64,000 nt of DNA from Massilia sp. Se16.2.3 (GTDB lineage: Bacteria; Pseudomonadota; Gammaproteobacteria; Burkholderiales; Burkholderiaceae_D): positions 806,001 to 870,000 of the forward strand of contig NZ_CP050451.1 of assembly GCF_014171595.1 (NCBI RefSeq), written 5' to 3'. Shown here piece after piece: positions 17,364-35,770 of this stretch (positions within the stretch are counted from its first letter, which is position 1; every line of letters begins with the position of its first letter). The position numbers and the translations under genes were made by a program. The notes beneath the pieces are model-generated. The model saw only the letters and a program-made list of their open reading frames with translations. It was not told where the DNA came from and made no database searches.

Positions 17364-17400
17364 GCCCCTTGTTGTCGCGGCAGCCAATTCTGCCGTAACG

Positions 17401-17436
17401 AAAAAAAGCCCGGACAGCCTGTCCGGGCTTTTTATT
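17401..17436 (+). terminator. Rho-independent terminator after glmS
   Basis: An A-run, then AAGCCCGGACA pairing with TGTCCGGGCTT around a short loop, then a T-run. It lies about 40 bp past the glmS stop and separates housekeeping genes from the arsenic cluster. Confidence 0.9.
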
Positions 17437-17683
17437 TTTGCGAGGCCGATCCCTGCCATCAGTCCCTTGCGTAGCGCCTCGCCCCAGGCACAGCCAGCGC
17501 TCGCGCAGCGGCGTACCACTACCCCAAAGCAACACCCCATTAAGCCCGGCAACACCTCCCTTCCCCTTCGTACAGGCACTGACCAATCGGACAGTAGGCG
17601 CCCGCATAGCCCCTCCCTATACTCGGCCACGAATACGCTTTTGCACACAGTAAAAGGTATTTCACCTAACGCGGAGAGTGAAC
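17437..17683. other. 247-bp upstream region of the arsenic-type operon
   Basis: No gene is seen. A TATACT-like -10 candidate lies near 17617 and GGAGAG ribosome site at 17672-17677, but there is no strong -35 and no recognisable ArsR-type dyad. The operon promoter is presumably here. Confidence 0.4.
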
Positions 17684-18343
17684 ATGTCTGAAGTCGACCC
17701 TATTGCAAACACCGGTTCGTCCTGCTGCCCGCCTCGTCCGGGACAGGCGGCCGCGGCATCCTGCTGCGCACCGAGCGCGGCTGCCCCAAGCGCTGCGGCA
17801 TGCTGCGCCCCGGCTCCAAGCCAGGCCGCCGGCTGCGGCGGCGCCGTGATCCTTGACGACGGTACCGACGAAGTGAGCGCGGTCGACTTCCCGAACGAGC
17901 GCCGCATCCACATCAGCCTGAACGTCAGGAACCTCAAGAAATCGCTCTGGTTCTATCGCATCCTGTTCAACCGCAACCCGAGCAAGCTGCGCGAGGACTA
18001 CGCCAAGTTCGAGCCGACCGTCCCGCCCGTGAACTTCACCCTCAATGAGCACGCCGACGCCATCGACCGCGACGGCCACTTCGGTATCGAGGTCAAGAGC
18101 ACCGAGGCCGTGCAGGCCGTGATCAACCGCATGACGGCCGCCGGCATGACGGTCAATACCCGCGAGACGCAGGTGTCGTGCTGCTATTCGGTGCAGGACA
18201 AGGTCTGGGTGGTCGACCCCGACGGTAACCACTGGGAAGTCTTTGTCGTCACCAACAGCGAAGCGGTCGAAGGCTGCGGCCTTTCCTGCATCTGCTACGA
18301 CAAGGAAACCGGCGGCTGCAACTGGAAATCGAACCGCGATTAA
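17684..18343 (+). CDS. ArsI/CadI family metalloenzyme with Cys-rich N-terminal extension
   Basis: The 219-residue protein contains a vicinal-oxygen-chelate domain of the ArsI/CadI family, whose ArsI members cleave the C-As bond of trivalent organoarsenicals. The expected ligands are present: H76, H132 and E185 for the metal, and the vicinal pair C166-C167 for the arsenical. A Cys-containing tail (CGLSCIC, residues 198-204) follows. Unusually, the first ~50 residues carry three Cys-Cys pairs (14-15, 27-28, 40-41) plus C51 in Ala/Pro-rich spacer, like a thiol metal-binding arm. The start at 17684 has GGAGAG before it. It heads the operon; a second copy follows. CadI-type cadmium binding is the alternative role. 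Confidence 0.88.
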   Translation: MSEVDPIANTGSSCCPPRPGQAAAASCCAPSAAAPSAAACCAPAPSQAAGCGGAVILDDGTDEVSAVDFPNERRIHISLNVRNLKKSLWFYRILFNRNPSKLREDYAKFEPTVPPVNFTLNEHADAIDRDGHFGIEVKSTEAVQAVINRMTAAGMTVNTRETQVSCCYSVQDKVWVVDPDGNHWEVFVVTNSEAVEGCGLSCICYDKETGGCNWKSNRD

Positions 18344-18409
18344 AACGCCCCCGTCGCGCATTCCAGCCGCATCCGATCCCGCATCGCCCAACCCATTACG
18401 AGAGCCGCC

Positions 18410-18916
18410 ATGGACCAGAACACGAACACCGCAGCCCCGGCCGAAGCCGAGCCCTTCCAGCTGAAACCCGCCAATTTCCCTGGCGACGAGCGCATCCATA
18501 TCAGCATCAACGTGGCCGACCTGTTCGACTCCGTCAACTTCTACCGCCATTTCTTCGGCATCGATCCAGTCAAGATCCGCGAAGGCTATGCCAAGTTCGA
18601 CGTGCAGGATCCGCCGCTGAATTTCTCCGTCAACGAAAACCCGCTCGACACCCGCACGCAAGGCCACCTGGGCATCCAGGTGAAAAGCACGCGCGTGGTG
18701 AAGGACACCTATGCACGCCTGCTGAAAGCCGGCTTCAAGATCCTGACCGAGGACGGTGCCGAGTGCTGCTACGCGGTGCAGACCAAGATGTGGGTGGCCG
18801 ACCCGGACGGCAACCGCTGGGAAGTGTTCTGCACCACGGTGCCGGATGCCGAACAGGGTTGTGGCGAAGACTGCATCTGCCACCAGGAATTCGAACGCAG
18901 CGTCGTCACCCAATAA
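18410..18916 (+). CDS. ArsI/CadI family metalloenzyme, second copy
   Basis: A 168-residue paralogue of the preceding gene without the Cys-rich extension. Equivalent ligands are conserved: H30 (ERIHISINV), H86 (GHLGIQ), C119-C120 (ECCYAVQ) and E138 (NRWEVF), and the C-terminus again carries CGEDCIC. Known ArsI enzymes are non-haem Fe(II) dioxygenases that demethylate trivalent methylarsenicals or split aromatic arsenicals. It starts 66 bp after the first copy, and 8 bp precede the next gene, so all are in one operon. Divergence between the two copies suggests different substrates or an enzyme plus a sequestering partner. Confidence 0.88.
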   Translation: MDQNTNTAAPAEAEPFQLKPANFPGDERIHISINVADLFDSVNFYRHFFGIDPVKIREGYAKFDVQDPPLNFSVNENPLDTRTQGHLGIQVKSTRVVKDTYARLLKAGFKILTEDGAECCYAVQTKMWVADPDGNRWEVFCTTVPDAEQGCGEDCICHQEFERSVVTQ

Positions 18917-18924
18917 GAGGCCAT

Positions 18925-19770
18925 ATGAAACCCTTCCTGAATCTGACCTTGTCCGCGCTGCTGGTGGCGGGTGCGGCGCTTGCCGGTCCGGCGCTGGCGC
19001 AAACCGTGATCACGGCCACCGGCGCGTCGACCATTGCGCCGCTGATGTCCGAAGTCGGCAAGCATTTCGAGAAAGCCAACCCGCAGGTGCGCGTCGAGGT
19101 GCAGTCGGGCGGCACCTCGCGTGGGATTGCCGACGTGCGCCAGGGTAGCGCGCGCATCGGCATGGTCTCGCGTGCGCTGCACGAGGACGAAAAGAAGGAC
19201 CTGGAAGCGCTGTTGATTGCCCGTGACGGCGTCGCCATGGTCGTGCACAAGTCCAATCCGGTAAAAGCGCTGACGCGCGAACAGATCATTGCCATCTATA
19301 CCGGCAAGGTGAAAAACTGGAAGGAAGTGGGCGGCGCCGACGCGCCGATCACTGTCATCAGCAAGGCCGAAGGACGCTCGACGCTGGAAGTGTTCACCCA
19401 CTACTTCGGCGTCACGCCGCGCGACATCAAGGCGCAGATCATCATCGGCGACAACCAGCAGGAGATCCGCACCGTGTCGACCAACAAGGGCGCCATCGGC
19501 TATGTCTCCATCGGTTCGGCCGAGTACGAGGCCAGCCACGGCACGCCGATCAAGATGCTTGCGCTGGGCAACCTGGTGCCGTCGACGCAGAGTGTGGCGT
19601 CGGGCGCCTACCCGATCGCACGCGATTTGAACCTGGTGTACCGCAAGCCGCTCAGCAAGGATGAATCCGCCCTGCTCGCCTACATGTCGACGCCGGCGGC
19701 GAAGAAGGAAATCCTGGCGCAGTTCTTCATCCCGGTGGCCACTGCACCGGTCGTGGCGAACAGCAAGTGA
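18925..19770 (+). CDS. PstS-like phosphate ABC transporter substrate-binding protein
   Basis: The start at 18925 gives 281 residues with a Sec signal peptide (1 to about 26, ending ALAQT). The mature protein begins VITATGASTIAPLM and contains SGGTSRGIADVRQGSARIGMVSR, the Ser/Gly/Arg oxyanion-binding pattern of the PstS-like family, plus STNKGAIGYVSIGSAEY. It is shorter than classical PstS (about 320-350 residues) and lies between ArsI-like genes and PstC, not in a pst-phoU operon. It could import phosphate selectively under arsenate stress or bind arsenate; sequence alone does not decide. Its TGA overlaps the next ATG (ATGA). Confidence 0.87.
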   Translation: MKPFLNLTLSALLVAGAALAGPALAQTVITATGASTIAPLMSEVGKHFEKANPQVRVEVQSGGTSRGIADVRQGSARIGMVSRALHEDEKKDLEALLIARDGVAMVVHKSNPVKALTREQIIAIYTGKVKNWKEVGGADAPITVISKAEGRSTLEVFTHYFGVTPRDIKAQIIIGDNQQEIRTVSTNKGAIGYVSIGSAEYEASHGTPIKMLALGNLVPSTQSVASGAYPIARDLNLVYRKPLSKDESALLAYMSTPAAKKEILAQFFIPVATAPVVANSK

Positions 19771-20681
19771 TGAAAGCCCTGGTGCCGGGCCATGCGCTGT
19801 TGCGCGGCGCCCCCAGCCAGCCTGCCGAGGGCAGCGGGCGCCGCGTCGACAGCGTGCTCCTGGCCGTGGTGTGCTGCTGCGCCCTGGTCGCCTCGCTGCT
19901 GATCGTCCTCATCGGCGTGTTCCTCGTCAAGGAGAGTTATCCGCTGGTGCAGAAGATCGGCTTCGCGCGTTTCCTGTTCGACGAAGGCTGGTGGCCGGGC
20001 AGCGGGCAGTACAACCTGGTGCCGATGATCGGCGCCAGCCTGCTGCTGACGCTCAGCGCCACGCTGATCGCCGCGCCGCTGGCCATCGTCTTTGCCGTCT
20101 GCCTCGCCTTTTATTGCGGCGAGCGGCTGCGCCGGGCATTGCGCCTGCTGGTCGACCTCAGCGCCTCGGTCCCCACCATCATCTATGCGTTCTGGGGACT
20201 GGTGACAATCGTGCCGCTGGTGGCTGCCATCGACGGCCCGGGCACGAGCGTGCTGGCCGGCAGCCTGGTGCTGGCGCTGATGATTTTTCCGACCATCGCC
20301 ATCCTCTGCCATTCGGCGATCGCCGCCGTGCCCAGCCATTATTTTGTCGCCGGCGCCGCGCTCGGGGTGCGCCGCTCGGCCTTGATCCGCCACGTGGTGC
20401 TGCCGCATGCGCGCAGCGGCATCGTCGCCGCCGTCATTCTCGGCGCGGCCAGGGCCATCGGCGAAACCATGGTGGTGCTGGTCCTGTGCGGGAACATCGT
20501 GCAGATGCCCTCGTCCGTCTTCGATCCGGTGCGCACGCTGACGGCCAACATTGCCCTGGAAATGCCCTATGCCCAGGACGACCACCGCGCGGCGCTCTAC
20601 GTCTCGGGCCTGATCGTCCTCCTTGTCGTGACCACGCTCGTCCTGATGAGTGAACTGTATGCACACCGCAAGCACCGCTAG
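19770..20681 (+). CDS. PstC-like phosphate ABC transporter permease
   Basis: A 303-residue integral inner-membrane permease with about six membrane segments and the binding-protein-dependent transport EAA-like loop (GAALGVRRSALIRHVVLPHARSG in two parts around residues 195-217, then AAVILGAARAIGETM). The ATG at 19770 overlaps the pstS stop by translational coupling. An early segment (residues 30-52) is rich in Val, Leu and Cys. It pairs with the PstA-like protein encoded next to form the channel of the importer. No phoU gene is seen nearby, consistent with a dedicated accessory transporter. Confidence 0.88.
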   Translation: MKALVPGHALLRGAPSQPAEGSGRRVDSVLLAVVCCCALVASLLIVLIGVFLVKESYPLVQKIGFARFLFDEGWWPGSGQYNLVPMIGASLLLTLSATLIAAPLAIVFAVCLAFYCGERLRRALRLLVDLSASVPTIIYAFWGLVTIVPLVAAIDGPGTSVLAGSLVLALMIFPTIAILCHSAIAAVPSHYFVAGAALGVRRSALIRHVVLPHARSGIVAAVILGAARAIGETMVVLVLCGNIVQMPSSVFDPVRTLTANIALEMPYAQDDHRAALYVSGLIVLLVVTTLVLMSELYAHRKHR

Positions 20682-21528
20682 CACCGCTGACATGCGCCCC
20701 TGGCAGATCCTGCCGCGCGCCGCCCTCTGGCTGGTCGTCGCGGCCGTGGCGGCGGCCATGCTGATGCCCGTCATCGACATCGTCATCCACGGCCTGCCGG
20801 TGCTGAGCTGGGAATTCATCACCGAGAACCCGCGCGACGCCGACCGCAGCGGCGGCATCGCCTCGGTGCTGGTGTCGACGGCGCTGATCACGGGCGTGAG
20901 CCTGGCGGCGGCGGTGCCGGTCGCTTTCGGTACCGCTGTCCTGCTGTCGGAATACGTGCCGGCCGACGGGCTGCTCGCTTCCCTGATCCGCGGCAGCCTC
21001 GACGTGCTGGCCGGCGTGCCCTCGGTGGTGTTCGGCCTGTTCGGCCTGACGCTGCTGTGCCGCCAGCTGGGGCTGGGCTACTCCATCGTGGCCGGCGGCC
21101 TGACGCTCGCCTGCATGATCCTGCCGACGCTGACGCGCACCATGTACAGCGCCTTCGACGCGCTCGGCACCCAGTACCGTTTCGCCGGCTCGGCGCTGGG
21201 CGTGTCGCGCATGGCCATCCTGCTGTACGTGAGCCTGCCGCTGGCGCTGCCCGCCGTCACCGCCGGCATCGTGCTCGGCCTGACGCGCGCGCTGGCGGAG
21301 ACGGCCGTGCTGCTCTTCACCAGCGGCTACTCCGACCGGATGCCGACCTCGGTCTTCAATTCCGGACGCAGCATTTCCCTGCACATCTACGAGCTGGCGA
21401 CGAACGTCTCCGGCGGCGACGGCGCCGCCTATGGCTCGGCGCTGGTGCTGATCATGCTGCTGGGCGTGGCCAGCCTGTGCATGCACGCCTTGTCGAACCG
21501 CATCCAGAAAAAATTCATCTCATCCTGA
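20659..21528 (+). CDS. PstA-like phosphate ABC transporter permease
   Basis: The second permease of the importer, about 289 residues from the ATG at 20659; a GTG three codons upstream is an alternative. Six membrane segments are apparent, with the EAA loop in RFAGSALGVSRMAILLYVSLP and the following TAGIVLGLTRALAETAVLLF. The phrase SLDVLAGVPSVVFGLFGL matches the PstA signature region. The gene starts inside the end of pstC (23-bp overlap), which indicates coupled translation in the operon. Confidence 0.88.
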   Translation: MHTASTASTADMRPWQILPRAALWLVVAAVAAAMLMPVIDIVIHGLPVLSWEFITENPRDADRSGGIASVLVSTALITGVSLAAAVPVAFGTAVLLSEYVPADGLLASLIRGSLDVLAGVPSVVFGLFGLTLLCRQLGLGYSIVAGGLTLACMILPTLTRTMYSAFDALGTQYRFAGSALGVSRMAILLYVSLPLALPAVTAGIVLGLTRALAETAVLLFTSGYSDRMPTSVFNSGRSISLHIYELATNVSGGDGAAYGSALVLIMLLGVASLCMHALSNRIQKKFISS

Positions 21529-21541
21529 AACGGGCGCAACC

Positions 21542-22423
21542 ATGAGCAAGATCGAGCAAAGCGAAGAATTGGCGGCCGCCTGCCTGGCCGCCTGCCAGAA
21601 CGTGCAGACGGCATGCGAGGGCGGCGAAGACTGCTGCACCGAGAACGTGCCGAGCGCGTGCGAGGGCGACGACTGCTGCATCGTGGTCGACAAGGTCGGC
21701 ATCCGCTACGGCTCCCACGTGGCGATGAAGGACGTGTCGCTGCGCATCCGCGCCAACAAGGTCACGGCCATCGTCGGGCCCTCGGGCTGCGGCAAGTCCA
21801 GCTTCCTGTACTGCCTGAACCGCCTGAACGACATGGTGCCGAACTGCGAAGTCTCCGGCTGCATCAGCTTCGATTTCTTCCAGGGCGCCGCGGCGCCCGA
21901 CCACGCGCTGCGGCGCCAGATCGGCATGCTGTTCCAGAAGCCGAACCCGTTTCCGTTTTCGATCTGGCGCAACCTCGAGTTCCCGCTGATGCAGCACGGG
22001 GTGAAGGACAAGGCCGAGCTGGCGGCGAAGATCGAGCGTGCCTTGATGGACGTCGGCCTGTGGGACGAAGTCAAGGACAAGCTGCACAAGCCGGCCCTGA
22101 CGCTGTCGGGCGGCCAGCAGCAGCGCCTGTGCCTGGCGCGCGCGCTGATCCTGCAGCCCAGCGTCCTCTTGATGGACGAGCCCTGCAGCGCGCTCGACCC
22201 GCTCTCGACCAGGAAGATCGAGGAACTCATCCGCAGCCTCTCGGCCACCATCACCATCATCCTGGTGACCCACAACATGGCGCAGGCGCGGCGCGTGGCC
22301 GACTACGTGGCCCTGTTCTGGAGCGAGGGCAATTCCGGCCGCCTGCTCGAATACGGCACCGCGCGGGAAGTGTTCGATTCGCCCAAGAGCGAACTGACAC
22401 GCTCCTATCTCGCTTTCGCCTGA
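21542..22423 (+). CDS. PstB-like phosphate ABC transporter ATPase with Cys-rich N-terminal extension
   Basis: A 293-residue ABC ATPase. Walker A is GPSGCGKSS (79-87), the signature is LSGGQQQRLCLARAL and Walker B is VLLMDEPCSALD; the DPLSTRKIEELI and LVTHNMAQARRVAD segments are PstB-typical. The first 46 residues are unlike ordinary PstB. They hold eight cysteines (14, 18, 25, 31, 32, 40, 45, 46), including two Cys-Cys pairs, ahead of the ATPase core. Such an arm could bind As(III) or a metal and gate the transporter; that is inference from composition and gene context. It starts 13 bp after pstA. Confidence 0.9.
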   Translation: MSKIEQSEELAAACLAACQNVQTACEGGEDCCTENVPSACEGDDCCIVVDKVGIRYGSHVAMKDVSLRIRANKVTAIVGPSGCGKSSFLYCLNRLNDMVPNCEVSGCISFDFFQGAAAPDHALRRQIGMLFQKPNPFPFSIWRNLEFPLMQHGVKDKAELAAKIERALMDVGLWDEVKDKLHKPALTLSGGQQQRLCLARALILQPSVLLMDEPCSALDPLSTRKIEELIRSLSATITIILVTHNMAQARRVADYVALFWSEGNSGRLLEYGTAREVFDSPKSELTRSYLAFA

Positions 22424-22459
22424 CCCGCCTTACCGAACCATCCACCCGGAACACGAGCC

Positions 22460-24858
22460 ATGAATACATTCTTCGAAAAATACGCGCGCTTCATCGTGCA
22501 AAAACGGCGCTGGGTCATCTTCGCCATCCTCCTCGTGACGGGCTTTCTCGGCTCGCGCCTGATGAACCTGCAGGTCGACATGGACCAGGATACCTGGGTG
22601 CCGCAGTCGCATCCGTTCGTGAAAACCACCAAGACCCTGGAAAAGATGTTCGGCGGCCGCGAAATCGTCATGATCGGGATCGCCCCGAAAAACGGCGACA
22701 TCTACCAGCCCGAGGTCCTGGCCCGCATCGCCCGCATCCAGCATGAGATCGAGAACATGCCGGAAGCGATACGCCACAACGTCATCAGCCTGGCAGCCAA
22801 CAAGGTCAAGGACATCAAGGGCAGCGCCGACGGCCTGGAAGTGCAGCCGATGATGGCGCAGGTGCCGTCTACCGAGGCAGAAATGAACACGCTGCGCGAA
22901 CGCGTCGAGCGCAACGCGATCTACACCAATTCGCTGGTGTCGCCCGACCACCGCGCCGCCGCCGTCATCGCCGACTTCAAGCTCGATTATTCGAAGCCCA
23001 GCTACGAGCCCCTGATGGCCAAGATCCGCGCCATCATGGACCGCGAACGCAACGCCGACATCGCCGTCTACGCCGCCGGCCTGCCGGTCGACTTCGGCTC
23101 GTTCGAGCACAACATGATGCAGATGCCGATGTTCTTCGGCGTGGCACTGTTGATCATCATGCTGATCCAGTACTACTCCTTCCGCAGCTTCCAGGGCATG
23201 CTGCTGCCGATCGTGACGGCCTTGCTGAGTGTGATATGGGCGCTCGGCTTCATGGGCCTGATGGGCGTGCACATGGATGGCTTGAACACGACCACGCCGA
23301 TCCTCATCATGGCGGTGGCCGCCGGCCACTCCGTGCAGATCCTGAAACGCTACTACGAGGATTTCCAGCGCCTGCGCACCCTCGAGCCGCACTCGGACCG
23401 CAAATGGCTGTCGCAGCGCGCCGTGGTCGACTGCATGGGCCACGTCGGACCGATCGTCGGCACCGCCAGCGTCATCGCCATCATCACCTTCTACACGCTG
23501 ACCCACTCGGAAGTGTCGTCCTCGGCACACTTCGGCTTCTTCGCCGGCTCCGGCGTGCTGGCCACCCTGATCCTCGAAATGACCCTGATCCCGGCGCTGC
23601 GCGCCAGCCTGCCGGCGCCGAAGGTCAAGGAAACGGCCGCCGAACAGAAAACCGGCCTGCTCGACCGCATGCTCGGCGCCCTGTCCCACGGCCTGGCGGG
23701 GGCGGCCGCGCCGGCTGGATCCTCGCCGCCGGCGTGGCGGTGGTGGCCCTGCTGGGCGCAGGTGTCACCTTCATCAATGTCGACAACAGCCTGAAGAATT
23801 TCAGCCGTCCGGACAGCCTGGTGCGCACCGACGACGCTGCCCTGAACGGCATGTTCGGCGGTACCAATACCGTGTTCTTCCTGGTCGAAGGCCTGCAGCC
23901 CGACGCCATCAAGGATCCGAAGGTCTTAAAAGCCATGGACGAGCTGCAGAAGTTCGTGACGGTCCAGCCGCATGTCGGCAAGGCGATGTCGATCGTCGAC
24001 ATCGTCAAGCGCCTGAACCAGGCGATGCACGGCGACGATCCGGCCTATTTCAGCATCCCCGACGACAAGGCGCTGGTCGCCCAGTACCTGTTCATGTATT
24101 CGCTCTCGGGCGGCCCCAAGGATTTCAGCAGCTATATCGACGGCGACTACAAGCGCGCCGCCATGTGGGTCTTCGTCAAGACCGACAGCACCTCCTACGC
24201 CACGGCGCTGCACGACCGCGCACAGGCGCTCATCAAGGACAAGTTCCCCGCCGGGGTGACCGTGCGCATGGGCGGCAGCCTGGCGCAGACCGTGGCCGGC
24301 AACAACGCGCTGACCCAGGACAAGTGGCGCAGCGTGTGGCAGATGGTGGCCGTCGTCTTCATCCTGTCCTCGCTGGCGCTGCGCTCCCTGGTCGGCGGCC
24401 TGTTCGTCACCCTGCCCCTCACCATCGTCGTGTTCGCCAACTTCGGCGTCATGGGCTGGCTCGGCATCCCGCTCGACATGGGCACCATGACCACCGCGGC
24501 AATGGCGATCGGCATCGGCGCCGACTACGAGCTGTACCTGCTGTTCCGCTTCAAGGAAGAACTGGGCCGCACCCACGACAGTTACCAGGCGACCTACCGT
24601 TCCCTGGTCACCTCGGGCAAGGCGGTGATCTACGTCGCCCTGTCGATCGCTGCCGGTTACTCCTTCCTGCTGACCTCGGGCTTCGCCTTCTACACCCGCC
24701 TGGCGGTGATGGTGATCGCGACGATGATCGTCAGCGGCTTCGTGGCGGTGATTTTCCTGCGCGCGCTGACGATGGTCTTCAAACCGCGTTTCATCTATGG
24801 CCAACACAATGCGCGCGCCGCCGCCGGCGCCGCGATCCGACTGGAGGAACGTGCATGA
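22460..24858 (+). CDS. MMPL/RND family transporter, frameshifted
   Basis: Encodes an RND-superfamily inner-membrane pump of the MMPL type with two tandem halves, each a periplasmic domain plus a membrane bundle (first: GVALLIIMLIQYYSFRSFQG and GHSVQILKRYYEDF; second: WQMVAVVFILSSLALRSL and IGIGADYELYLLFRFKEEL). The first frame breaks at a G-run (23698-23702), and the second half continues in another frame to 24858. Adding one base gives about 799 residues, a normal length. It starts 36 bp after pstB and overlaps the next gene by 4 bp. With the following LolA-like and beta-barrel genes it forms a trio that probably moves a hydrophobic or organometalloid compound across the envelope. Confidence 0.87.
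23696..23703 (+). other. Apparent 1-base deletion in the MMPL gene
   Basis: A five-G run where one more base would join the frame ending LSHGLAG to the frame continuing GRAGWILAAG. Everything before and after is well conserved in style with no lost residues. Confidence 0.75.
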
Positions 24859-25679
24859 AAACGACTACCCATTTCAGCTGGTCGCACCGCTGGGCCCATC
24901 TCGGCGGCCTGGTGCTGGCCACGGCCCTGCAATCGGCCCACGCGGGCGCGGCGCCTGGCGTCGACGAAATCATGCAGAACAATTTTTATGCCTCCAAGGT
25001 CAAGGCGCTGGAAAAGCACGTCACCCTGACGCTGACGGACGAGGGCGGCGTCAAGCGCGAGCGCAAGCTGCATGCCATCTCCGCCCTGCAGCCGAACGGC
25101 ATCGATTCGCGCCTGATGGTGCGCATCGTCGCGCCGGCCGACGTCAAGGGCGTGGGCTTCCTCAAGCACGAGCACATGGACGGCGAGGACGAGCAGTGGA
25201 TCTTCCTGCCAGCCCTGCATAAGAGCCGGCGCCTGGTGGCGAACAACAAGAAGGACAGTTTTCTGGGCAGCGATTTTGCCTACGGCGACATCCTGACGCC
25301 GAAAGTCACGCTCTACCAGAACCGGCTGGTGGGCTCTGAGATCATCGACGGCATCGACTGCTATGTCATCGAGTCGGTGCCGGTGGACGACAAGGTCAAG
25401 CGCGATTACGACTACGGCAAGAAGGTGCAATGGATCGCCAAGTCGAACTTCCACGAGGTCAAAATCGACTACTACGACCTCGCCGGCGCCCTGCTGAAAA
25501 CCCAGGTCGTCAAGGGCATCACGCAGATGGGCAAGGATGGCGGGCGCTGGGCGGCGACGATGCGCCAGATGGTCAACCACCAGACCAGACACACGTCGAC
25601 CTTCGTTGCGAATGCCGCCAAGGCCGATATCGCTATCCCGGAAAGCACGTTTACGTTGAGGAACCTTGAACGCGAATGA
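24855..25679 (+). CDS. Outer membrane lipoprotein-sorting (LolA-like) periplasmic protein
   Basis: The start at 24855, after GGAGGAAC, overlaps the pump's stop codon (ATGA). The 274-residue product has a long signal peptide (cleavage near SAHAGAAPG, about residue 30) and a single domain of the LolA/LppX fold family annotated as outer membrane lipoprotein-sorting protein. Typical segments are DVKGVGFLKHEH, EDEQWIFLPALHKSRRLVANNKKDSFLGSDFAYGD (in parts) and KVQWIAKSNFHEVKIDYYD. Such proteins regularly accompany MMPL pumps and are thought to carry a hydrophobic substrate through the periplasm. Confidence 0.87.
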   Translation: MKTTTHFSWSHRWAHLGGLVLATALQSAHAGAAPGVDEIMQNNFYASKVKALEKHVTLTLTDEGGVKRERKLHAISALQPNGIDSRLMVRIVAPADVKGVGFLKHEHMDGEDEQWIFLPALHKSRRLVANNKKDSFLGSDFAYGDILTPKVTLYQNRLVGSEIIDGIDCYVIESVPVDDKVKRDYDYGKKVQWIAKSNFHEVKIDYYDLAGALLKTQVVKGITQMGKDGGRWAATMRQMVNHQTRHTSTFVANAAKADIAIPESTFTLRNLERE

Positions 25680-26965
25680 GCGCGGCTGGCCGCTGTCTGG
25701 CCCAGGCGCTGGTCGCAGCGGCGGCCGGCGCCACGGAGCCGGGGGCCGAACCCGCGCCGCTCGAGGGCGAACTGGCGGGACCCGCGGCAATCAAGTTCGC
25801 CAGCGCCGCCCGCCTGAACTACACGCGTTCAGACAAGGTCCTGAGCGACGAACGCCACTTCGTGCTGTCGACCTTCGAGACCAAGGCTTCCTACGACCTG
25901 TCCTCCAGCCTGCGCGCGGCGCTGCAGCTGCGCGCCAGCGCCATCCTCGCGCCCGGCACCCGCTCCCAAGTCGACTTTCCCTACGCTTACCTCGACTGGC
26001 GCACCACGGCCGCCGATTTCCGCATCGGCAAGCAGATCCTCGCCTGGGGCAAGACCGATGCCTTGAATCCCACCGATATCGTCACCCCGCGCAACTACAC
26101 GACCCTGCTGCCCTTCGACGAGGACGAGCGCAGCGGCGTGTGGGGCGCGCGCGGCACCTATTACGTCACCGATACGGTCGCGGCCACCCTGTTTTTTGGC
26201 ACCCGCTTCAAGCCGTCCACGCTGCCTTTCGCCTCGCGCGGGGCGCAGCAGTACCGCTTCGATGCCGACGGTGCAAAGAAGCGCCAGGTCGGCGTGCGCG
26301 TCGCCGTCACCCGCGACGACATCGATTTTTCCGTCAGCGCCTACCACGGCGCCAGTTTGCTGGCGCAGGCGGAACGGGCCGAAACGCGCGCCGGCACGCA
26401 CACGGTGTTCCTGCGCTACCCCACCATCGACATGGTCGGCGCCGACCTGGCCCGCAACTTCGGCAAATTCGGCATGCGCATCGAAGCGGCCGCCGTCCGC
26501 CCCGTGCGCGGGGAGGCGACAGCGACCGGCTTGCGGCCCTACCGCTACCTGGTGGCCGGGATGGACCGCACCTTTTTCAGCGACCTGAATGTCAATGTCC
26601 AGCTCTTCGGACGCTGGACCGATCCCGCACCAGGGCGCGCCGGCGCCTGCGGCTGCGTTGACGCCATGGGGGCGGAACTGACGGGGCTGAACGGCCTGAT
26701 CTTCGTCCAGTCGCGCCGCCGCACCCAGGGCATGACCTTCCGCGTTGCCAACCAGTGGATGAACCAGACCCTCAGCGCCGAAGTCTTCGTGCAGCATTAT
26801 TTTGGCGACAACAGCACCTATGTGCACCCGATGGCCACCTACGCGCTGAGCGACCGCACCCGGATCACGGCCGGTGCGGTCTGGTATGGGGGGAATGAGG
26901 GCAGCCTGTTTGGCGTCATGAAGAAAAACAGGAGCGTGTTCAGCGAACTGCGTTACTCCTTCTAG
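25676..26965 (+). CDS. DUF1302-like outer-membrane beta-barrel protein
   Basis: A 429-residue protein ending in the beta-barrel signature RYSF with terminal Phe, rich in alternating aromatic strands. The phrase IGKQILAWGKTDALNPTDI, typical of the DUF1302-like family found beside MMPL pumps, lies near residue 118. It overlaps the preceding stop by 4 bp. The N-terminus (MSAAGRCLAQALVAAAAGA) is a short and atypical signal sequence, so the true start may be upstream or slightly altered. Inferred role: the outer-membrane part of the MMPL/LolA-like/barrel export route. It is the last gene of the plus-strand operon; the convergent methyltransferase gene ends 39 bp away. Confidence 0.84.
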   Translation: MSAAGRCLAQALVAAAAGATEPGAEPAPLEGELAGPAAIKFASAARLNYTRSDKVLSDERHFVLSTFETKASYDLSSSLRAALQLRASAILAPGTRSQVDFPYAYLDWRTTAADFRIGKQILAWGKTDALNPTDIVTPRNYTTLLPFDEDERSGVWGARGTYYVTDTVAATLFFGTRFKPSTLPFASRGAQQYRFDADGAKKRQVGVRVAVTRDDIDFSVSAYHGASLLAQAERAETRAGTHTVFLRYPTIDMVGADLARNFGKFGMRIEAAAVRPVRGEATATGLRPYRYLVAGMDRTFFSDLNVNVQLFGRWTDPAPGRAGACGCVDAMGAELTGLNGLIFVQSRRRTQGMTFRVANQWMNQTLSAEVFVQHYFGDNSTYVHPMATYALSDRTRITAGAVWYGGNEGSLFGVMKKNRSVFSELRYSF

Positions 26966-27004
26966 CGCGGCCTCGCGGCCGCGCCGGTTCGGCGGGCGAG
27001 CGGT

Positions 27005-27640
27005 TTATTTCGTCGCCAGCACGCAGACGCCACGCGACAGCGGGCCCTGGGAGATCGGCGAGGTGGCGTGCGTCGCGCTTGCGAAGCCGACTTCGTCGAG
27101 CATGGCCATCAGTTCGCGTGCCGGATACAGCCGGAACACGCCCGTCTGCGTGATCCTGACGCCGGCCATTTCCTCGGCATCGCCCATGTAGACGGCCAGC
27201 TGGCCGCCGGGACGCAGCACGCGCAGGATTTCGCGCAGGGGCTCGCGCGGGTTCTGCCAGAAATAGATGACGTTCACGCAGAACACCTTGTTGAAGCTGG
27301 CGTCCGGATACGGCAGCCTGGCCGCGTCGCCGACGCTCAGTTCGACCTGTCCGCGCGCGATGGCCTCGCGGTTGCGCGACGAGGCTTGCGCCAGCATGGT
27401 GTCGGAAAAATCGATGCCGCGGATTTTTCCGGAGGTGATTTGCTCGGTCAGCAATTCGATGGCCTGGCCGGGACCGTAGCCGATCTCGAGGACGTCGTCA
27501 TAGGGTGCAAGCCCCAGCTGCGACAGCGTCCATGCGTTCGCTTCGCGGTTGATGCGGCTCATCGAGAGGCCGAAGAGCCGGCCGAACAATCCGTTCGGGC
27601 GGCGCGCCTGCTGCGCCATGGCGTGTACGAGGGAAGGCAT
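27005..27640 (-). CDS. Class I SAM-dependent methyltransferase
   Basis: The start at 27640 (MPSLVHAMAQQ) follows ACGGAG. The 211-residue protein has the SAM-binding glycine motif VLEIGYGPGQAIELL, the acidic IRGIDFSDTML, and VFCVNVIYFWQNPREPLREILRVLRPGGQL, a COQ5/UbiE-type arrangement. No arsenic-binding cysteine set is evident (few Cys), so the substrate is unknown; being the last gene of the minus-strand arsenic-type run, it may methylate an arsenical or a related organic intermediate. It follows the SufU-like gene by 37 bp. Confidence 0.85.
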   Translation of the reverse strand: MPSLVHAMAQQARRPNGLFGRLFGLSMSRINREANAWTLSQLGLAPYDDVLEIGYGPGQAIELLTEQITSGKIRGIDFSDTMLAQASSRNREAIARGQVELSVGDAARLPYPDASFNKVFCVNVIYFWQNPREPLREILRVLRPGGQLAVYMGDAEEMAGVRITQTGVFRLYPARELMAMLDEVGFASATHATSPISQGPLSRGVCVLATK

Positions 27641-27677
27641 CTGGTTTTCTCCGTCTTTTTTGTGTGAAGCGGGCCGC

Positions 27678-28154
27678 CTATTCGGCAAGCTCCGCAATGT
27701 TCGACCTGGCGATGTGCGCCGTCGACAGCAGCGTGCCGAGCGTGTTCCAGGAAAGGCTGACGCATTCGGTGCGCGAAGGCACATCGCGTATCCGTTCGAA
27801 GACGCGCAAGCCCGCCAGCTGCGGCGTCTGCAGGCGCTCGCCCGCGTCCACGTCGCCGGCCACCATCGCCGGGAACTGTTCGCGCAAGGCGCGCGCCCCG
27901 GCGATCGACAGGCCCTTGATCGCGTCCGTCATCATCGAGGCCGACGCCATGCACAGCGCGCAGCAGGCCGAGCTCGAGAACGACACGGCCTGGACGCGCC
28001 CGGCGTCGACCCGCAGGTACAGCCGCAGATGGTCGCCGCAGATCGGGCTGTCGCCTTGCAGCTGCAGGTTCGCGTCGGCCAGCACGCCCCGGTTGTTCGG
28101 CTGGCGGCCGTACTTGAGGATCTCGTCCTGGTACAGGATTTGGGCATTCGTCAT
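27678..28154 (-). CDS. SufU-type iron-sulfur cluster scaffold / sulfur-transfer protein
   Basis: The 158-residue protein has the NifU/IscU fold in its SufU form: C39 and D41 in SPICGDHL, C64/C65 in SSACCALC with an extra C68, and C131 in SRTECVSL. In SufU these positions bind zinc and accept sulfur from the partner SufS. It lies 20 bp after sufS, so the pair is complete. No sufB, sufC or sufD is present here, which argues for a dedicated sulfur-transfer role in this cluster rather than the general Fe-S assembly system. The extra Cys pair near residue 64 is unusual. Confidence 0.87.
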   Translation of the reverse strand: MTNAQILYQDEILKYGRQPNNRGVLADANLQLQGDSPICGDHLRLYLRVDAGRVQAVSFSSSACCALCMASASMMTDAIKGLSIAGARALREQFPAMVAGDVDAGERLQTPQLAGLRVFERIRDVPSRTECVSLSWNTLGTLLSTAHIARSNIAELAE

Positions 28155-28174
28155 CGCGCTCTTTCGTGGGTCGG

Positions 28175-29443
28175 TCAGGGTGCGGCGAAGATGCGCTTGA
28201 CGTGTTTCACGCCGTCGACCAGGGCATCGATTTCGTCGCGCGTGTTATAGAACGCGAACGAGGCGCGTGCCGTGGCGGGCACGCCGAAACGCTCCATTAC
28301 CGGCTGGGCGCAGTGGTGGCCGGCGCGGATCGCGACCCCATACGAATTGAGCAGGCTGCCGACGTCGTGCGGATGGATGTCGTCGAGCATGAACGACAGC
28401 ACGCCCGCCTTCTGTGCGGCGGTGCCGATGATGCGCACGCCCGGCACGGTGCGCATCCGTTCGTCGGCATAGGCCAGCAGTGCCGACTCGTAGGCCGCGA
28501 TCCGGTCCATGCCGATGGCCGACAGGTAGTCCACCGCGGCGCCGAGGCCGATCGCCGCGACGATGGGCGGCGTGCCGGCTTCGAATTTGTACGGTGCGAC
28601 GTTATAGATGGTCTCCTCGAACGTGACGCGCAGGATCATGTCGCCGCCGCCCAGGTAGGGGCCCATGCGTTCCTGGATGGCGCTGCGCGCATACAGGATG
28701 CCGATGCCGGTCGGGCCGAACAGCTTGTGGCCGGAGAAGGCGTAGAAATCGCAATCGAGGTCGCGCACGTCCACCGCCATGTGCGGGATGGCCTGGGCGC
28801 CGTCGACCAGGGTGACGATGCCGCGCTTCTTCGCTTCGGCCACCATCAGCCTGACCGGATTGACCGAACCGAGTGCATTCGACACGTGCGACATCGCCAC
28901 CAGCCGGGTGCGCGCGTTGAGCAGCTTCATGTATTCATCGACCATCACTTCGCCGTCGTCGTTCAGGGGAACGACGCGCAGCACGCACTTCTTTTCCTTG
29001 CACAGCATTTGCCAGGGCACGATGTTCGAGTGGTGCTCGAGCGTGGTGACGATGATCTCGTCGCCTTCCTGCAGGTTCGGGCGGCCGTAGCTTTGCATCG
29101 CCAGGTTGATCGAATCGGTGGTGCCGCGCGTGAACAGGATTTCGGTGTGGCTGGCGGCATTGACGAAGGCGGCGACTTTCTTGCGCGCGCCTTCGTAGGC
29201 TTCGGTCGCCTCGGCGCCGAGCGTGTGCACGCTGCGGTGCACGTTGGCGTGTTCGTTGGTGTGATAGCGGTGGATGCGGTCGCTCACCTGGCGCGGCATC
29301 TGTCCCGAGGCCGCGTTGTCGAGATAGGCGAAGGTCCCTTTCGGCTCCATGTGCCGCTGCAGGACAGGAAAGTCGAGGCGCACGGCATCGACATCGAAGA
29401 AATCGGCTTGGACGTTCACGTCCCGCAGTAAGTTTGCCGCCAT
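28175..29443 (-). CDS. SufS-type cysteine desulfurase
   Basis: A pyridoxal-phosphate enzyme that takes sulfur from cysteine as a persulfide. The start at 29443, after GGAGAG, gives 422 residues. Visible motifs are YLDNAASGQMP, the PLP-His region TTLEHHSNIVPWQ, the Schiff-base Lys in FSGHKLFGPTG and the catalytic Cys in IRAGHHCAQP. It is paired with the downstream SufU-like gene and preceded by the ArsM-like methyltransferase gene (96-bp gap). In this setting it may supply persulfide for thio-arsenical chemistry or repair Fe-S damage from arsenite; both are inference. Confidence 0.93.
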   Translation of the reverse strand: MAANLLRDVNVQADFFDVDAVRLDFPVLQRHMEPKGTFAYLDNAASGQMPRQVSDRIHRYHTNEHANVHRSVHTLGAEATEAYEGARKKVAAFVNAASHTEILFTRGTTDSINLAMQSYGRPNLQEGDEIIVTTLEHHSNIVPWQMLCKEKKCVLRVVPLNDDGEVMVDEYMKLLNARTRLVAMSHVSNALGSVNPVRLMVAEAKKRGIVTLVDGAQAIPHMAVDVRDLDCDFYAFSGHKLFGPTGIGILYARSAIQERMGPYLGGGDMILRVTFEETIYNVAPYKFEAGTPPIVAAIGLGAAVDYLSAIGMDRIAAYESALLAYADERMRTVPGVRIIGTAAQKAGVLSFMLDDIHPHDVGSLLNSYGVAIRAGHHCAQPVMERFGVPATARASFAFYNTRDEIDALVDGVKHVKRIFAAP

Positions 29444-29539
29444 GTTTGCTCTCCAGGTTTGATAGGTAGGGGCGTGCAGCCCCACACGCCTGCCCTGCAG
29501 GCGCGTGACGTGCTGGTCGTACGGTGTGCTTTTTTTTGT

Positions 29540-30595
29540 TCAGGCGCAGCAGGACGACTGGTTGTCGCAGCAGCCGCCCGTGCTCGCCGCCGGTGCCGCC
29601 GTGGCCGTGGTTGCCGCTGGTGGGCAGACGACGCCCGGTGCGCAGCCGCAGGCCGACAGCGGAGCCGCTTTCGCCAGCGCCGGCAGGTCGAGCACCATGA
29701 AGTTGTCGCTGTACGGCGCCATGCGCAGGCGCGCGGCCGTGGCATCGCACACCTCGGTCGGGGTGAAGCGCACGAAGTCGTGGTCCTCTTCGTCCTTCAC
29801 GCTGGCGTAGGGGCCGAGGTAGATCGCGGCATGGCCGCCATAGACGCAACCGGAGACCTTGCTGCTCGGCAGTTTATAGGCGCGCAGCGTGATCGAGCCG
29901 AAGTGGTAGCCGGCGACCTTTTCCCAGGTCGATTCGTCGAGCTGCGTCAGGCCGAGGAAGCCCAGGCTTTCGTAGGTGCTGACGAGTTTATTCACGGGGA
30001 TGGCGCCCGTATAGCACTCCGCCCACAGCTGCTCGTTGGCGCGGTCGGCTTCGGCCACTTCGCGGTCGACGACGATGTCGGAGATGACGAGGCGTCCGCC
30101 CGGGCGCAGGATGCGGTGGATTTCCTTCATCACGACGTCCTGGTGCAGCGACAGGTTGAGCACGCAGTTCGAAATGACCAGGTCGACACTGTTGTCCTCG
30201 ACCGGGAGCTGTTCGATGACGCCCTTGCGGAATTCGACGACGTTGTAGCCGAGTTCGGCTGCCACTTCCTGGTTGAATTCGTGTGCACGCTCGAGCATGG
30301 CGTCGGTCATGTCGACACCGATGACTTTGCCGGTCGGGCCGACCAGGCGCGCGGCGACGAAGCAGTCGATACCGACGCCGGAGCCGAGGTCGACGACCGT
30401 CTCGCCGGCTTGCGCGCCAGCCTTGAGCAAGGGGCTGCCACAGCCGTAGTTGTGATCGAACGCCTGCTTCGGAATGTGCCTGGTGAACTCCGATTGATAG
30501 GATTGCGGGCAGCACAGACCGGCAGGGCGGGCCGCCGCATCTGCATACACGGCGCCCACGGTTTTGGTTTTTGAATCTAGCGTCTCTACGTTCAT
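29540..30595 (-). CDS. ArsM-like arsenite methyltransferase with Cys-rich C-terminal tail
   Basis: The 351-residue protein has the SAM motif VVDLGSGVGIDC (67-78), VIGVDMTDAML, and ISNCVLNLSLHQDVVMKEI, followed by HRILRPGGRLVISDIV: the layout of ArsM-type enzymes, which methylate trivalent arsenic stepwise. Cysteines at 52 (NYGCGSP), 144 (SNC) and 194 (AECYTG) match the three-Cys As(III)-binding pattern of the family; C28-C29 is an additional pair. The last 40 residues carry seven cysteines, ending GGCCDNQSSCCA, as seen in some ArsM proteins. An AGGGG ribosome site precedes the ATG at 30595. Substrate assignment relies on these Cys positions and the cluster. Confidence 0.85.
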   Translation of the reverse strand: MNVETLDSKTKTVGAVYADAAARPAGLCCPQSYQSEFTRHIPKQAFDHNYGCGSPLLKAGAQAGETVVDLGSGVGIDCFVAARLVGPTGKVIGVDMTDAMLERAHEFNQEVAAELGYNVVEFRKGVIEQLPVEDNSVDLVISNCVLNLSLHQDVVMKEIHRILRPGGRLVISDIVVDREVAEADRANEQLWAECYTGAIPVNKLVSTYESLGFLGLTQLDESTWEKVAGYHFGSITLRAYKLPSSKVSGCVYGGHAAIYLGPYASVKDEEDHDFVRFTPTEVCDATAARLRMAPYSDNFMVLDLPALAKAAPLSACGCAPGVVCPPAATTATAAPAASTGGCCDNQSSCCA

Positions 30596-30644
30596 TCGAT
30601 CACCCCTGGATGGATTTTCTTACCGTTTTTTTTGCGGACAGCGA

Positions 30645-30938
30645 TCAGGCTTTCTGATCGTAGCAGTCGCATTTCGACAGGCTCGCCTGCACTTCGGAGG
30701 CGTTGATGGCGCCGCGCAGGTGCATGGTGACGTTGCCGTCGACGCCGTCGACGACAACCGCTTCCAGGCGCGACTTGAAGTCGTCGCTGCAGCAATCCGA
30801 TGGGCAGCCGCTACCGCCTGGCGCGCACATATTCGCCATGGCCTGCATCTTCTCAACCGTGATCACGTCGCCTGCGACAGTGATGTCGACGCCTTTGTCG
30901 AGCTGGGTCATTCCGGTAACGTTGTTGTTGAGATTCAT
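30645..30938 (-). CDS. Small Cys-rich protein of unknown function
   Basis: A 97-residue frame with an excellent ribosome site (AGGAGAAACACC before the ATG at 30938). Cysteines at 38, 45, 49, 50, 90 and 92 form a central C-x6-C-x3-CC group and a terminal CDC. The first half alternates short strands (GVDITVAGDVITVEKMQ) and the second half resembles a small alpha/beta fold. No family is recognised. It sits 49 bp upstream of the ArsM-like gene, so the two are probably co-transcribed; a metalloid-binding or chaperone role is a reasonable guess only. Confidence 0.7.
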   Translation of the reverse strand: MNLNNNVTGMTQLDKGVDITVAGDVITVEKMQAMANMCAPGGSGCPSDCCSDDFKSRLEAVVVDGVDGNVTMHLRGAINASEVQASLSKCDCYDQKA

Positions 30939-31154
30939 GGTGTTTCTCCTAGATGGTTGAGGTCTTCAATCGGGGCCAGACCGTTCTCGGGCTGCCCTAC
31001 GTTGAGCAGGCATTAGACCATCCGGAAAAGCACGAAACTAGCTGACCGTGCGTACAGGCAGGGGCGGCGGACAGGACAGGAGGCGTGCAATGGGGGGCGC
31101 GCGCCGGCGCCTGCGCCGGAAGGCGCAACAGGCGAGCTGGGAGGAAACAGCGCA

Positions 31155-31172
31155 GGCCGCCGGACGGCGGCC
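31155..31172. repeat. Perfect 8-bp-stem hairpin at the 3' end of luxR
   Basis: GGCCGCCG and CGGCGGCC flank a 2-base loop just downstream of the luxR stop on the minus strand. There is no T-run, so factor-independent termination would be weak. Confidence 0.5.
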
Positions 31173-31180
31173 CGGAGGAA

Positions 31181-31906
31181 TTACAGCAGGGCGTACTGGT
31201 GCGCGACCGTGACGGCCTGGGCGCGGTTGACCACGGCCAGTTTGCGGTACACGTTTTGCAGATGGAATTTGACGGTGCGTTCGGTGACGCCGAGGATGGA
31301 GCCCGTCTCGCCGCAGCTCTTGCCGACCGCGACCCATTGCAGGATTTCCTTTTCGCGCGTGGTCAGCACGATGGGCTCGCTTTGCTTGCCCTGGGCTTTT
31401 GCCACGACGGCGTTGGCGGACAGGCGGCCGATGGCGGCGGACAGGTAGGGCGTGAGCCCGTCGAGCAATTCCTGGTCTTCCGACGACTGGTCCTTGCGCA
31501 CGAATGCGGCGCACAGGGCGGGCGTCCTGGTGGAATTCTTGGTGGAATAATTGCAGACCATGATGCCGTCGTCGGTCCTGGTGATGTCGCTGGGGGTGGC
31601 TCCGTTGGCGTCGCTGGTGTTCGATGAGCCCGTACAGGAGGATCGACAACTGAGCTTGCGTTCGGCATCGGCCCTGGCGCCATCGCGCTCCTCGGACACC
31701 AGCGCCGGATCCTCGGGTGGCTGCAAATGGCATTTCCCGGGCAATGCCGATTCGGAGCAGGTGCCGATCACCAGCTCTTCGCAGCGCAAGGTCTCGTAGG
31801 CCAGCCTTTTCAGGCTTTCGTACAGCGCCGCCGAGTCCCTGGTTTTTTGCGTATCAAAAATAAAATCGAGCACGGAAATCAGTTCCGGTTTCGATAAGTT
31901 CTGCAT
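31181..31906 (-). CDS. LuxR-type transcriptional regulator with multiple cysteines
   Basis: The 241-residue protein ends in a LuxR/GerE helix-turn-helix (about 172-238: LTTREKEILQWVAVGKSCGE, then ILGVTERTVKFHLQNVYRKL). The N-terminal ~165 residues match no autoinducer or receiver domain that I recognise and contain seven cysteines (42, 50, 59, 87, 91, 118, 132), with CRSSC at 87-91 and one more Cys in the HTH. It lies inside the arsenic-type minus-strand group, before the small Cys-rich gene. A thiol-based metalloid sensor is a plausible inference; ArsR-type repressors are absent from the window. Confidence 0.83.
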   Translation of the reverse strand: MQNLSKPELISVLDFIFDTQKTRDSAALYESLKRLAYETLRCEELVIGTCSESALPGKCHLQPPEDPALVSEERDGARADAERKLSCRSSCTGSSNTSDANGATPSDITRTDDGIMVCNYSTKNSTRTPALCAAFVRKDQSSEDQELLDGLTPYLSAAIGRLSANAVVAKAQGKQSEPIVLTTREKEILQWVAVGKSCGETGSILGVTERTVKFHLQNVYRKLAVVNRAQAVTVAHQYALL

Positions 31907-32198
31907 GTCGTCTCCCTAACTTCAAACGAAAACTTTTCAAATAGTCTTGGCTATCGGATCGTTTTTTCTATGATTGTCACCACCGCGTTGCAGGCAACGC
32001 GGCCGTGGTCGTATCGTGAAGTCCGGGCTTGGGCCCGCATCGGGGCCAGCCTGTTTTTATTGGTTTCCAGAGAATCCCGTCCGTCGAGCGGCTTTTGCTT
32101 ACCGCCGACCACGTCGAGCTTCCGGCTAAATTGCAGGCCGGTCAACTAGCAAGAAGATGGGGTAGTGATAGGTTTTCAACTACGGTATGCAGCACGGC
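31907..32198. other. Intergenic region upstream of luxR with hairpin
   Basis: No gene is seen. CCGCGTTGC (31983-31991) pairs perfectly with GCAACGCGG (31994-32002). The AT-rich part next to luxR (31920-31970) probably holds its promoter. Confidence 0.45.
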
Positions 32199-32676
32199 TC
32201 AGGCCAGTTGCCCGATGCGGGTCAGTTCGGCCGCCAGGTGCGCCCGGTCCTGGCGCAATTCGTCCAGCGGCAGCGCGAGGAAGGCCTCGATGCGCAGGCG
32301 CAGGATGCGGTAGGCCTGCATGAAGGCGGCATCGATTTCCTCGTCGGTCCCGGTCGCATGCGCCGGGTCGTCGACGCCCCAGTGCGCGCGCATGACCGGT
32401 CCCGGGTGAACCGGGCAGGTTTCGCCGGCGGCGCTGGCGCAGACGGTGATGACGATGTCCGGCGTCGCCGGCAAGTCTTCCCGAGGATTTGCTGTGGTAG
32501 CCCTCCGTGGAAATGCCCTCGCGCCGCAGCAGCGCCAGCGACCGCGGGTGTACCTGGCCGGTCGGTTTGCTGCCCGCGCTCAGCGCACGCCATGGCGCCG
32601 GTGCCAGGTGATTGAAGGTCGCTTCGGCGAGAATCGAACGGCAGGAGTTACCGGTGCAGAGAAACAGGATGTGCAT
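32199..32676 (-). CDS. arsC: Thioredoxin-type (low-MW PTP fold) arsenate reductase, frameshifted
   Basis: Reduces arsenate to arsenite using the low-molecular-weight phosphatase fold. The N-terminus MHILFLCTGNSCRSILAEA holds the anion-binding P-loop (CTGNSCRS). The frame breaks after YHSKS; the C-terminal half (PDIVITVCASAAGETCPV, HWGVDDPAHATG) continues in another frame, and contains the two further redox cysteines. Removing one G near 32483 restores the family's YHSKSWEDLP. Repaired length is about 158 residues, normal. It starts the minus-strand arsenic group; the arsenite produced would feed the ArsM-like enzyme. The indel may be a sequencing error. Confidence 0.88.
32482..32484 (-). other. 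Apparent 1-base insertion in arsC
   Basis: Coding strand reads TCCTCGGGAAGAC where TCCTGGGAAGAC would give the conserved Ser-Trp-Glu-Asp and restore the downstream frame. Confidence 0.75.
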
Positions 32677-35437: not shown

Positions 35438-35770
35438 GTGACTCCCCTTTTTCTCTCGTTATCAAATAAAGTACAAATTATTACAACAATGCATGACACA
35501 AACGTTACATGCAAGCATTGTTTGTCTGTACTGACGAGATGAGGGGCGTTTGTCGACAACGGGCTCCGTCGCATGTGCGAAAGCGGCCGGGATGCGGCGT
35601 CGCCGCGAGCGTGCGCTGGCCAGAGGAGAACGTGAGGATAGCGGCCGCTCGGTTGGGCGGCGTGACGATCGCGATCGGGCTATTGGAGACAAGATGCCGC
35701 CGGCGAGCGCAGCGAGGTAGCCGGGCGCGTCGGCGGTTGCAGGCTGCCTGGAGCCGGGCAGCCGTCGAGA
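35438..35770. other. Intergenic region upstream of the PHP-domain gene
   Basis: 333 bp with no supported gene. The 60 bp next to the PHP gene start are AT-rich (35460-35520) and probably hold its promoter; the remainder is GC-rich with no repeat or hairpin that stands out. Confidence 0.4.

Follow-up and report, generated by a model that had tools for sequence, protein, structure and literature searches.

A 15-kilobase block of 16 genes in Massilia sp. Se16.2.3 (positions 17684–32676 of the window, the 64,000-nucleotide stretch at positions 806,001 to 870,000 of contig NZ_CP050451.1, assembly GCF_014171595.1) is well supported as a conserved, rare and mobile arsenic island. Direct comparison found counterparts of all 16 genes in Pleionea mediterranea, with identities from 29.7% (DUF1302 protein) to 65.8% (ArsI2); because the whole set recurs there, the block is not a chance neighbourhood. 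In the best explanation, to which we give about an even chance, the block is a horizontally acquired insertion whose predicted products convert and export an arsenical, in a manner closer to biosynthesis than to simple efflux. The evidence is best matched by a pathway for organo- or thio-arsenicals and less well by simple efflux of arsenite.

Gene content was established from an open reading frame (ORF) listing together with Pfam and NCBIfam family scans. On the plus strand the order is arsI1, arsI2, pstS, pstC, pstA, pstB, the MMPL pump gene, the lolA-like gene and the DUF1302 gene; on the minus strand, in reading order, it is arsC, luxR, p97, arsM, sufS, sufU and a second methyltransferase gene (mtB). 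The two groups converge, as proposed in a first-pass annotation made from the letters alone, which spoke of two facing groups. Every family named there (a Pst-like importer, an ArsI pair, an MMPL export trio, an ArsM-like enzyme, SufS/SufU, ArsC and methyltransferases) was found, with p97 and the LuxR-type regulator as additions. Its account of the pump and the arsenate reductase held as to family but needed correction as to state, the MMPL and ArsC genes each being frame-split in the assembly. Family matches are given below in bits.

17684–18343, plus strand: ArsI1, predicted ArsI/CadI-type carbon–arsenic (C–As) lyase with a Cys-rich N-terminal arm and a C-terminal CGxxCIC tail (NF041414, 135.7)
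18410–18916, plus strand: ArsI2, second predicted ArsI/CadI-type enzyme, of the type fused to ArsM in relatives (NF041414, 143)
18925–19770, plus strand: PstS-type binding protein of the GRST loop subgroup (PF12849; TIGR02136, 173.3, cut-off 206.6)
19767–20681, plus strand: PstC-type permease (TIGR02138, 225.5, cut-off 196.45)
20650–21528, plus strand: PstA-type permease (TIGR00974, 191.4, slightly under the cut-off of 193.45)
21542–22423, plus strand: PstB-type ATPase with a Cys-rich N-terminal arm (TIGR00972, 309.1, cut-off 343.2)
22460–24858, plus strand: MMPL/HAE3-type RND pump, in two frames near 23.7 kb (PF03176 on both pieces)
24855–25679, plus strand: LolA-like periplasmic protein (PF17131, 175.3)
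25676–26965, plus strand: DUF1302 outer-membrane type protein (PF06980, 29.3, cut-off 23.2)
27005–27640, minus strand: mtB, second S-adenosylmethionine (SAM) methyltransferase (PF08241, 78.4)
27678–28154, minus strand: SufU-type sulfur-transfer protein (TIGR01994, 108.8, cut-off 92.5; alignment with 1xjs)
28175–29485, minus strand: SufS-type cysteine desulfurase with a GHHC motif (TIGR01979, 561.1, cut-off 475.1)
29540–30595, minus strand: ArsM homologue with a Cys-bearing C-terminal tail (closest solved chains 4kw7/4fr0; NF008823, 215.7, cut-off 263)
30645–30938, minus strand: p97, orphan six-cysteine protein of 97 amino acids (aa), without a Pfam or NCBIfam match
31181–31906, minus strand: LuxR-type regulator with a Cys-bearing middle region (PF00196, 62.8)
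32199–32676, minus strand: ArsC, predicted thioredoxin type (LMWPc), frame-split near 32.5 kb (both pieces match TIGR02691, the first also PF01451)

The two TIGR02691 scores for ArsC, 28 and 45.7, belong to the separate pieces of the frame-split gene.

Pleionea, a distant gammaproteobacterium of the Oceanospirillales and of marine origin, keeps arsI1 through the DUF1302 gene, nine genes in all, in identical order and strand, and the order p97–arsM–sufS–sufU as a second block. Identities were 58.8% for ArsI1, 51.4% for PstS, 48.8% for mtB, 58.0% and 63.1% for the two MMPL pieces and 32.6% for the LuxR-type regulator over its length. When a collection of 84,980 species was scanned with ArsM, 80 loci were returned; Pleionea alone stood at 58%, and the others reached at most 53% over shorter or partial stretches. 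At the Pleionea locus 17 of 18 query pieces were matched, and pstS, just outside it, was recovered at 50%. The locus also holds two ArsI-like genes, a DUF924 gene and a flavin adenine dinucleotide (FAD) oxidoreductase gene encoding a Cys-bearing tail; the two extra ArsI-like proteins score below the ArsI cut-off (65.2 and 109.4 vs 116), and one lacks the Cys pair. The first-pass annotation had asked for a search for the set in other genomes and had described its functions as rarely seen together. The full recurrence in Pleionea answers the first point, and the second is supported by p97, which among sampled genomes only these two organisms carry: it was found in 1 of 62 genus genomes and in 1 of 369, 1 of 399 and 1 of 398 genomes of overlapping class, order and phylum samples, always the window genome, and among 119 genomes of Pleionea's order in Pleionea only. 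No description of the gene set, of p97 or of the ArsI–ArsM fusion described below was found in the PubMed Central (PMC) literature, which covers few subscription journals.

The genome is a single contig of 5.35 Mb, in which the block sits downstream of glmS; no equivalent is present there in any of ten relatives examined. In relative G023, whose GlmS is 97% identical, the distance from the end of glmS to the gene matching window 32901–35465 is about 1.85 kb, vs 15.5 kb here, and the interval holds one ORF of 542 aa. In the nine further relatives similarity ends where glmS ends, a single 50-base match in one relative being the exception. When the cluster proteins were compared by tblastn with the ten relatives' stretches, no cluster gene was found behind glmS; the only matches (expect value 1e-8) were three generic ABC-ATPase ones, elsewhere in G023. 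The block is not distinguished by GC content. The post-glmS stretch (window 17364–17678 and its counterparts) varies among relatives, like an insertion hot spot.

ArsI1 and ArsI2 are predicted to be ArsI-type C–As lyases. Both exceed the NCBIfam NF041414 (ArsI/CadI) cut-off of 116 bits. Aligned with 5c4p, both keep its metal-ligand positions and its CC pair, which we take to be the iron ligands and vicinal cysteine pair of solved ArsI; the first ligand is His in both proteins vs Gln in 5c4p. The CadI in the name of this model would suit a target other than arsenic, some thiophilic element such as Cd or Sb, but that reading is very improbable given that ArsC, ArsM and the ArsI–ArsM fusion indicate arsenic and that the CC pair aligned with solved ArsI is kept. 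For ArsM, the closest solved chains were the arsenic methyltransferases 4kw7 and 4fr0, and the cysteines of its YGCGS, SNC and EC motifs, presumably the functional cysteines of arsenic methyltransferases, are kept in alignment with both. Because its score lies below the NF008823 cut-off, the protein is called an ArsM homologue here and is not filed as a member of that family.

A protein search with ArsM gave 1002 hits, and 120 of these were listed. Among the matches listed were four ArsI–ArsM fusions of 643–656 aa (P0042–P0045), two of them named Candidatus (Ca.) Thiodiazotropha, sulfur-oxidising clam symbionts. Their N-terminal ArsI-type domain, with an ArsI2-like CGxDCICH tail, runs directly into ArsM; the three fusions scanned scored 139.5, 138.1 and 134.8 bits on NF041414, and all four also bear a long Cys-rich tail. 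Fusion of this kind usually means that both enzymes work on one substrate line. Cys-rich C-terminal tails, with 15–26 Cys in 111–182 residues, were found in 21 of 32 ArsM homologues examined from the 120 listed (three gave no count, the marker motif being missing or the tail too short), and in the two proteins scanned the tail matched no Pfam family; the tail of the window ArsM itself is short. Conserved tails in relatives P0022–P0058 show CCDP, DGSPCCD, ECCxC and CCGxGCGxCGC patterns. Another ArsM homologue, P0088 from a Gemmatimonadetes metagenome-assembled genome (MAG), ends in a PHO4-type phosphate transporter domain (PF01384).

Cys-rich arms added to several members, as claimed in the first-pass annotation, were borne out against 126 mechanical ORFs of a relative. 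Cysteine makes up 5.9% of ArsI1, 4.3% of ArsM and 4.8% of PstB, vs a mean of 1.18% in the control ORFs; the densest 60 residues hold 7, 7 and 8 Cys, respectively, and 7 was reached by two of the 126 controls and 8 by none.

The six cysteines of p97 (38, 45, 49, 50, 90 and 92) are invariant in an alignment of 21 rows. The AlphaFold model is confident (mean predicted local distance difference test score 88.8, predicted TM score 0.77), and no clear structural relative of it was seen. A p97 profile run against 5.8 billion protein sequences returned 21 entries, one of which, a 56-aa fragment, was omitted from the alignment; they include Pleionea, Ideonella sp. DXS29W, two Ca. Thiodiazotropha and an unclassified Pseudomonadota MAG. 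Six of the 21 match ArsM entries (among the 120 of 1002 listed) in longest-contig size (548951, 29570, 17269, 7115, 7011 and 2464), and putative linkage of p97 to ArsM elsewhere was judged from these equal sizes. We propose that p97 may be a carrier of As(III) or of persulfide sulfur.

SufS passes the TIGR01979 cut-off and keeps its active-site Cys (GHHC). It scores below the cut-off of NF041166, the family 2A encapsulin cargo desulfurase (629.8 vs 800), with the first 216 positions of that profile unmatched; the encapsulin shell family PF19307 had no match in the genome, yet none in 14 control genomes either. In SufU the C-D, C and C positions of 1xjs, presumably functional residues, are conserved. 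The SufB/D scaffold (PF01458), by which SUF Fe–S assembly is recognised, had no match in the genome, and 14 of 14 control genomes match it. Encoded in a genome that lacks SufB/D, and next to arsM and p97 in two lineages, SufS and SufU look devoted to sulfur donation. Chemistry is known in which a trivalent arsenical takes up persulfide sulfur and becomes a thioarsenical, and it may operate here.

The importer belongs to a distinct PstS subgroup. A KAEGRSTL loop is common to all five PstS aligned, those of the window, Pleionea and three cyanobacterial plasmid relatives of 49.6–51% identity; at the place of the anion loop these five have R-S-T, vs S-G-T in all five solved phosphate-binding chains compared (5 of 23 matched). 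An ArsR-type regulator gene precedes pstS in two of the three plasmid regions opened (of 27 records matched), and in one of the three, that of Pseudanabaena galeata, arsenosugar arsM and arsS lie within 10 kb of the arsR–pstSCAB operon. Since its genes stand behind arsR in plasmids, the subgroup is arsenic-linked, which does not necessarily make it arsenate-importing. The arsR–pstS operons were seen on P. galeata pPg_02 and Nostoc edaphicum pNe_5. The Cys-rich PstB arm is also present in Pleionea and absent from the three cyanobacterial PstB.

These features bear on a reading in which the Pst system would keep up the phosphate supply in the presence of arsenate by scavenging, with the remaining genes as arsenic functions situated nearby. 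Published work offers precedents: in many Burkholderiales pst genes are found next to aio and ars genes, and for one of these importers a preference for phosphate of more than 10^3-fold is reported (PMC3954881); Halomonas GFAJ-1, too, is reported to have phosphate-specific Pst systems (PMC5930303). The loop of this PstS differs from that of the phosphate-binding chains, the PstB has Cys arms, the scans of the cluster showed neither phoU nor a pho regulator, and in Pleionea as in the window arsI2 and the pump gene enclose the pst genes. We therefore regard discrimination between arsenate and phosphate as an unlikely purpose of the block.

No ArsR, ArsB or Acr3 family was found in the scans of the cluster proteins, as the first-pass annotation had stated, and the block is thus not a canonical ars operon. 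The genome does have a separate ars locus near 4.82 Mb (4821929–4826403) with ArsB, two ArsR/SmtB-type regulators, a glutaredoxin-type ArsC and ArsH; an FAD oxidoreductase there, its gene in two frames, is 34% identical to the one of Pleionea. With ArsB in that locus, arsenite efflux is available without the island. This argues against a block that serves resistance only, in which arsenate and methylarsenicals, taken up or encountered, would be reduced, demethylated and pumped out and SufS/SufU would mend arsenic-damaged thiols or clusters. Such a role is possible, though we think it distinctly less than probable. ArsI, ArsM and ArsC are known detoxification enzymes (PMC6205960), and glyoxalase-type genes occur in many Burkholderiales ars clusters (PMC3954881). 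Against it, ArsB, ArsC, ArsH and two ArsR-type regulators already exist elsewhere in the genome, an importer of its own would bring a resistance set no gain, and without SufB/D the SufS/SufU pair is an incomplete SUF cluster-assembly set, although it could still supply ISC.

The preferred, biosynthesis-like reading would run as follows. The PstSCAB variant would import an arsenate-like oxyanion, which ArsC would reduce to As(III). As Cys-rich carriers, p97 and the arms of ArsI1, PstB and ArsM may hold As(III) and hand it over to ArsM for methylation, and the ArsI enzymes would act on the still-channelled methylated As(III). SufS and SufU may give persulfide sulfur to the arsenical, and the product would leave via the MMPL pump, with the LolA-like protein as shuttle and the DUF1302 protein in the outer membrane, the gene set being under control of the LuxR-type regulator and its extra cysteines. 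Every substrate, the direction of importer selectivity, the role of sulfur and the product are our predictions within this scheme. What the sequence itself shows is the gene set and where it recurs, the conserved catalytic residues, the ArsI–ArsM fusion and the missing SufB/D. The organo- or thio-arsenical pathway first suggested for this DNA is partly supported, by the fusions, the recurrence in Pleionea, SufS/SufU without SufB/D, the arsenic-linked PstS and the separate ars locus; the activities, the thioarsenical chemistry and arsenate transport by the importer are the parts that we infer.

Several observations weigh against this reading. ArsI usually reverses the action of ArsM, so that resistance is another possible meaning of the pair. 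No radical SAM enzyme (PF04055; ArsL/ArsS-type), which could form a C–As bond, was listed in the family scans of the cluster proteins. ArsM falls below its NCBIfam cut-off, as do PstS, PstA and PstB, PstC alone passing. In GFAJ-1, one of the phosphate-specific Pst systems lies inside an arsenic island, and Pst deletion reportedly left arsenic resistance unchanged (PMC5930303). Lastly, MMPL and ArsC each lie over two frames. Their Pleionea counterparts (802 and 176 aa) are open, and frame breaks are common in this assembly: 126 G023 ORFs were searched in 164–460 kb of the window genome, 59 reached a coverage of 80% or more, and among these 59 control genes, intact in G023, 14 are frame-split. 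ArsB of the separate ars locus also spans two frames. The two splits therefore tell little about function, and gene calls in the window genome need care. Gene decay was considered and rejected as unproven, an indel-rich assembly being explanation enough.

A bolder form of the proposal, which we put forward tentatively and hold to be rather doubtful, is a new class of bacterial arsenic natural-product pathway. Arsenate would be imported deliberately; ArsM and a channelled ArsI-type oxygenase would build an organoarsenical by a route other than simple demethylation, with sulfur added by SufS/SufU and arsenic carried on p97 and on the Cys-rich tail of ArsM; and the RND envelope pump, controlled by the LuxR-type regulator, would secrete a product that bears sulfur and is probably apolar. 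If so, arsenic would be a raw material that the cell takes in deliberately, arsenic metabolism would extend to sulfur transfer and carrier proteins, and thiolated or other unusual natural arsenicals would have a testable genetic origin. New protein parts would be added in p97 and the Cys-rich tail of ArsM, together with the ArsI–ArsM fusion enzyme and a PstS subgroup with arsenate as a possible ligand, and the pathway would be a fourth kind beside the few described bacterial organoarsenical pathways (arsenosugar, arsinothricin and bisenarsan).

Among these, the arsinothricin arsQML genes of Burkholderia gladioli likewise place an ArsM homologue in an arsenic neighbourhood with an exporter; neither ArsL nor ArsQ is among the scanned cluster proteins, and the block differs in having ArsI, PstSCAB, SufS/SufU and an envelope-spanning pump (PMC8552651). 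The cyanobacterial arsenosugar set arsM–arsS has ArsM in common, and in P. galeata arsR–pstSCAB, with the same PstS subgroup, lies less than 10 kb away; no ArsS-type radical SAM enzyme was found in the present cluster, which adds the ArsI pair, SufS/SufU and p97. The bisenarsan bsn cluster of Streptomyces is likewise bacterial organoarsenic secondary metabolism, but its C–As bond is made without SAM enzymes, via homologues of 5-enolpyruvylshikimate-3-phosphate (EPSP) synthase and phosphoglycerate mutase, neither of which was found in the block (PMC12159101). The Halomonas GFAJ-1 arsenic island has a pst operon inside it, as the block does, but also Acr3, ArsH, major facilitator superfamily (MFS) and glyceraldehyde-3-phosphate dehydrogenase (GAPDH) genes, and its Pst is phosphate-specific (PMC5930303). 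For export, the MMPL piece was classed in the HAE3 family by the NCBIfam scan, and AmeABCD of Castellaniella defragrans, which serves apolar monoterpenes, combines an HAE3-type RND pump with a DUF1302 partner in the outer membrane and a LolA/DUF1329 partner in the periplasm as here, its fourth protein AmeC not being seen in the block (PMC6394551). By analogy, this AmeABCD-like export set hints that the product may be apolar or amphiphilic.

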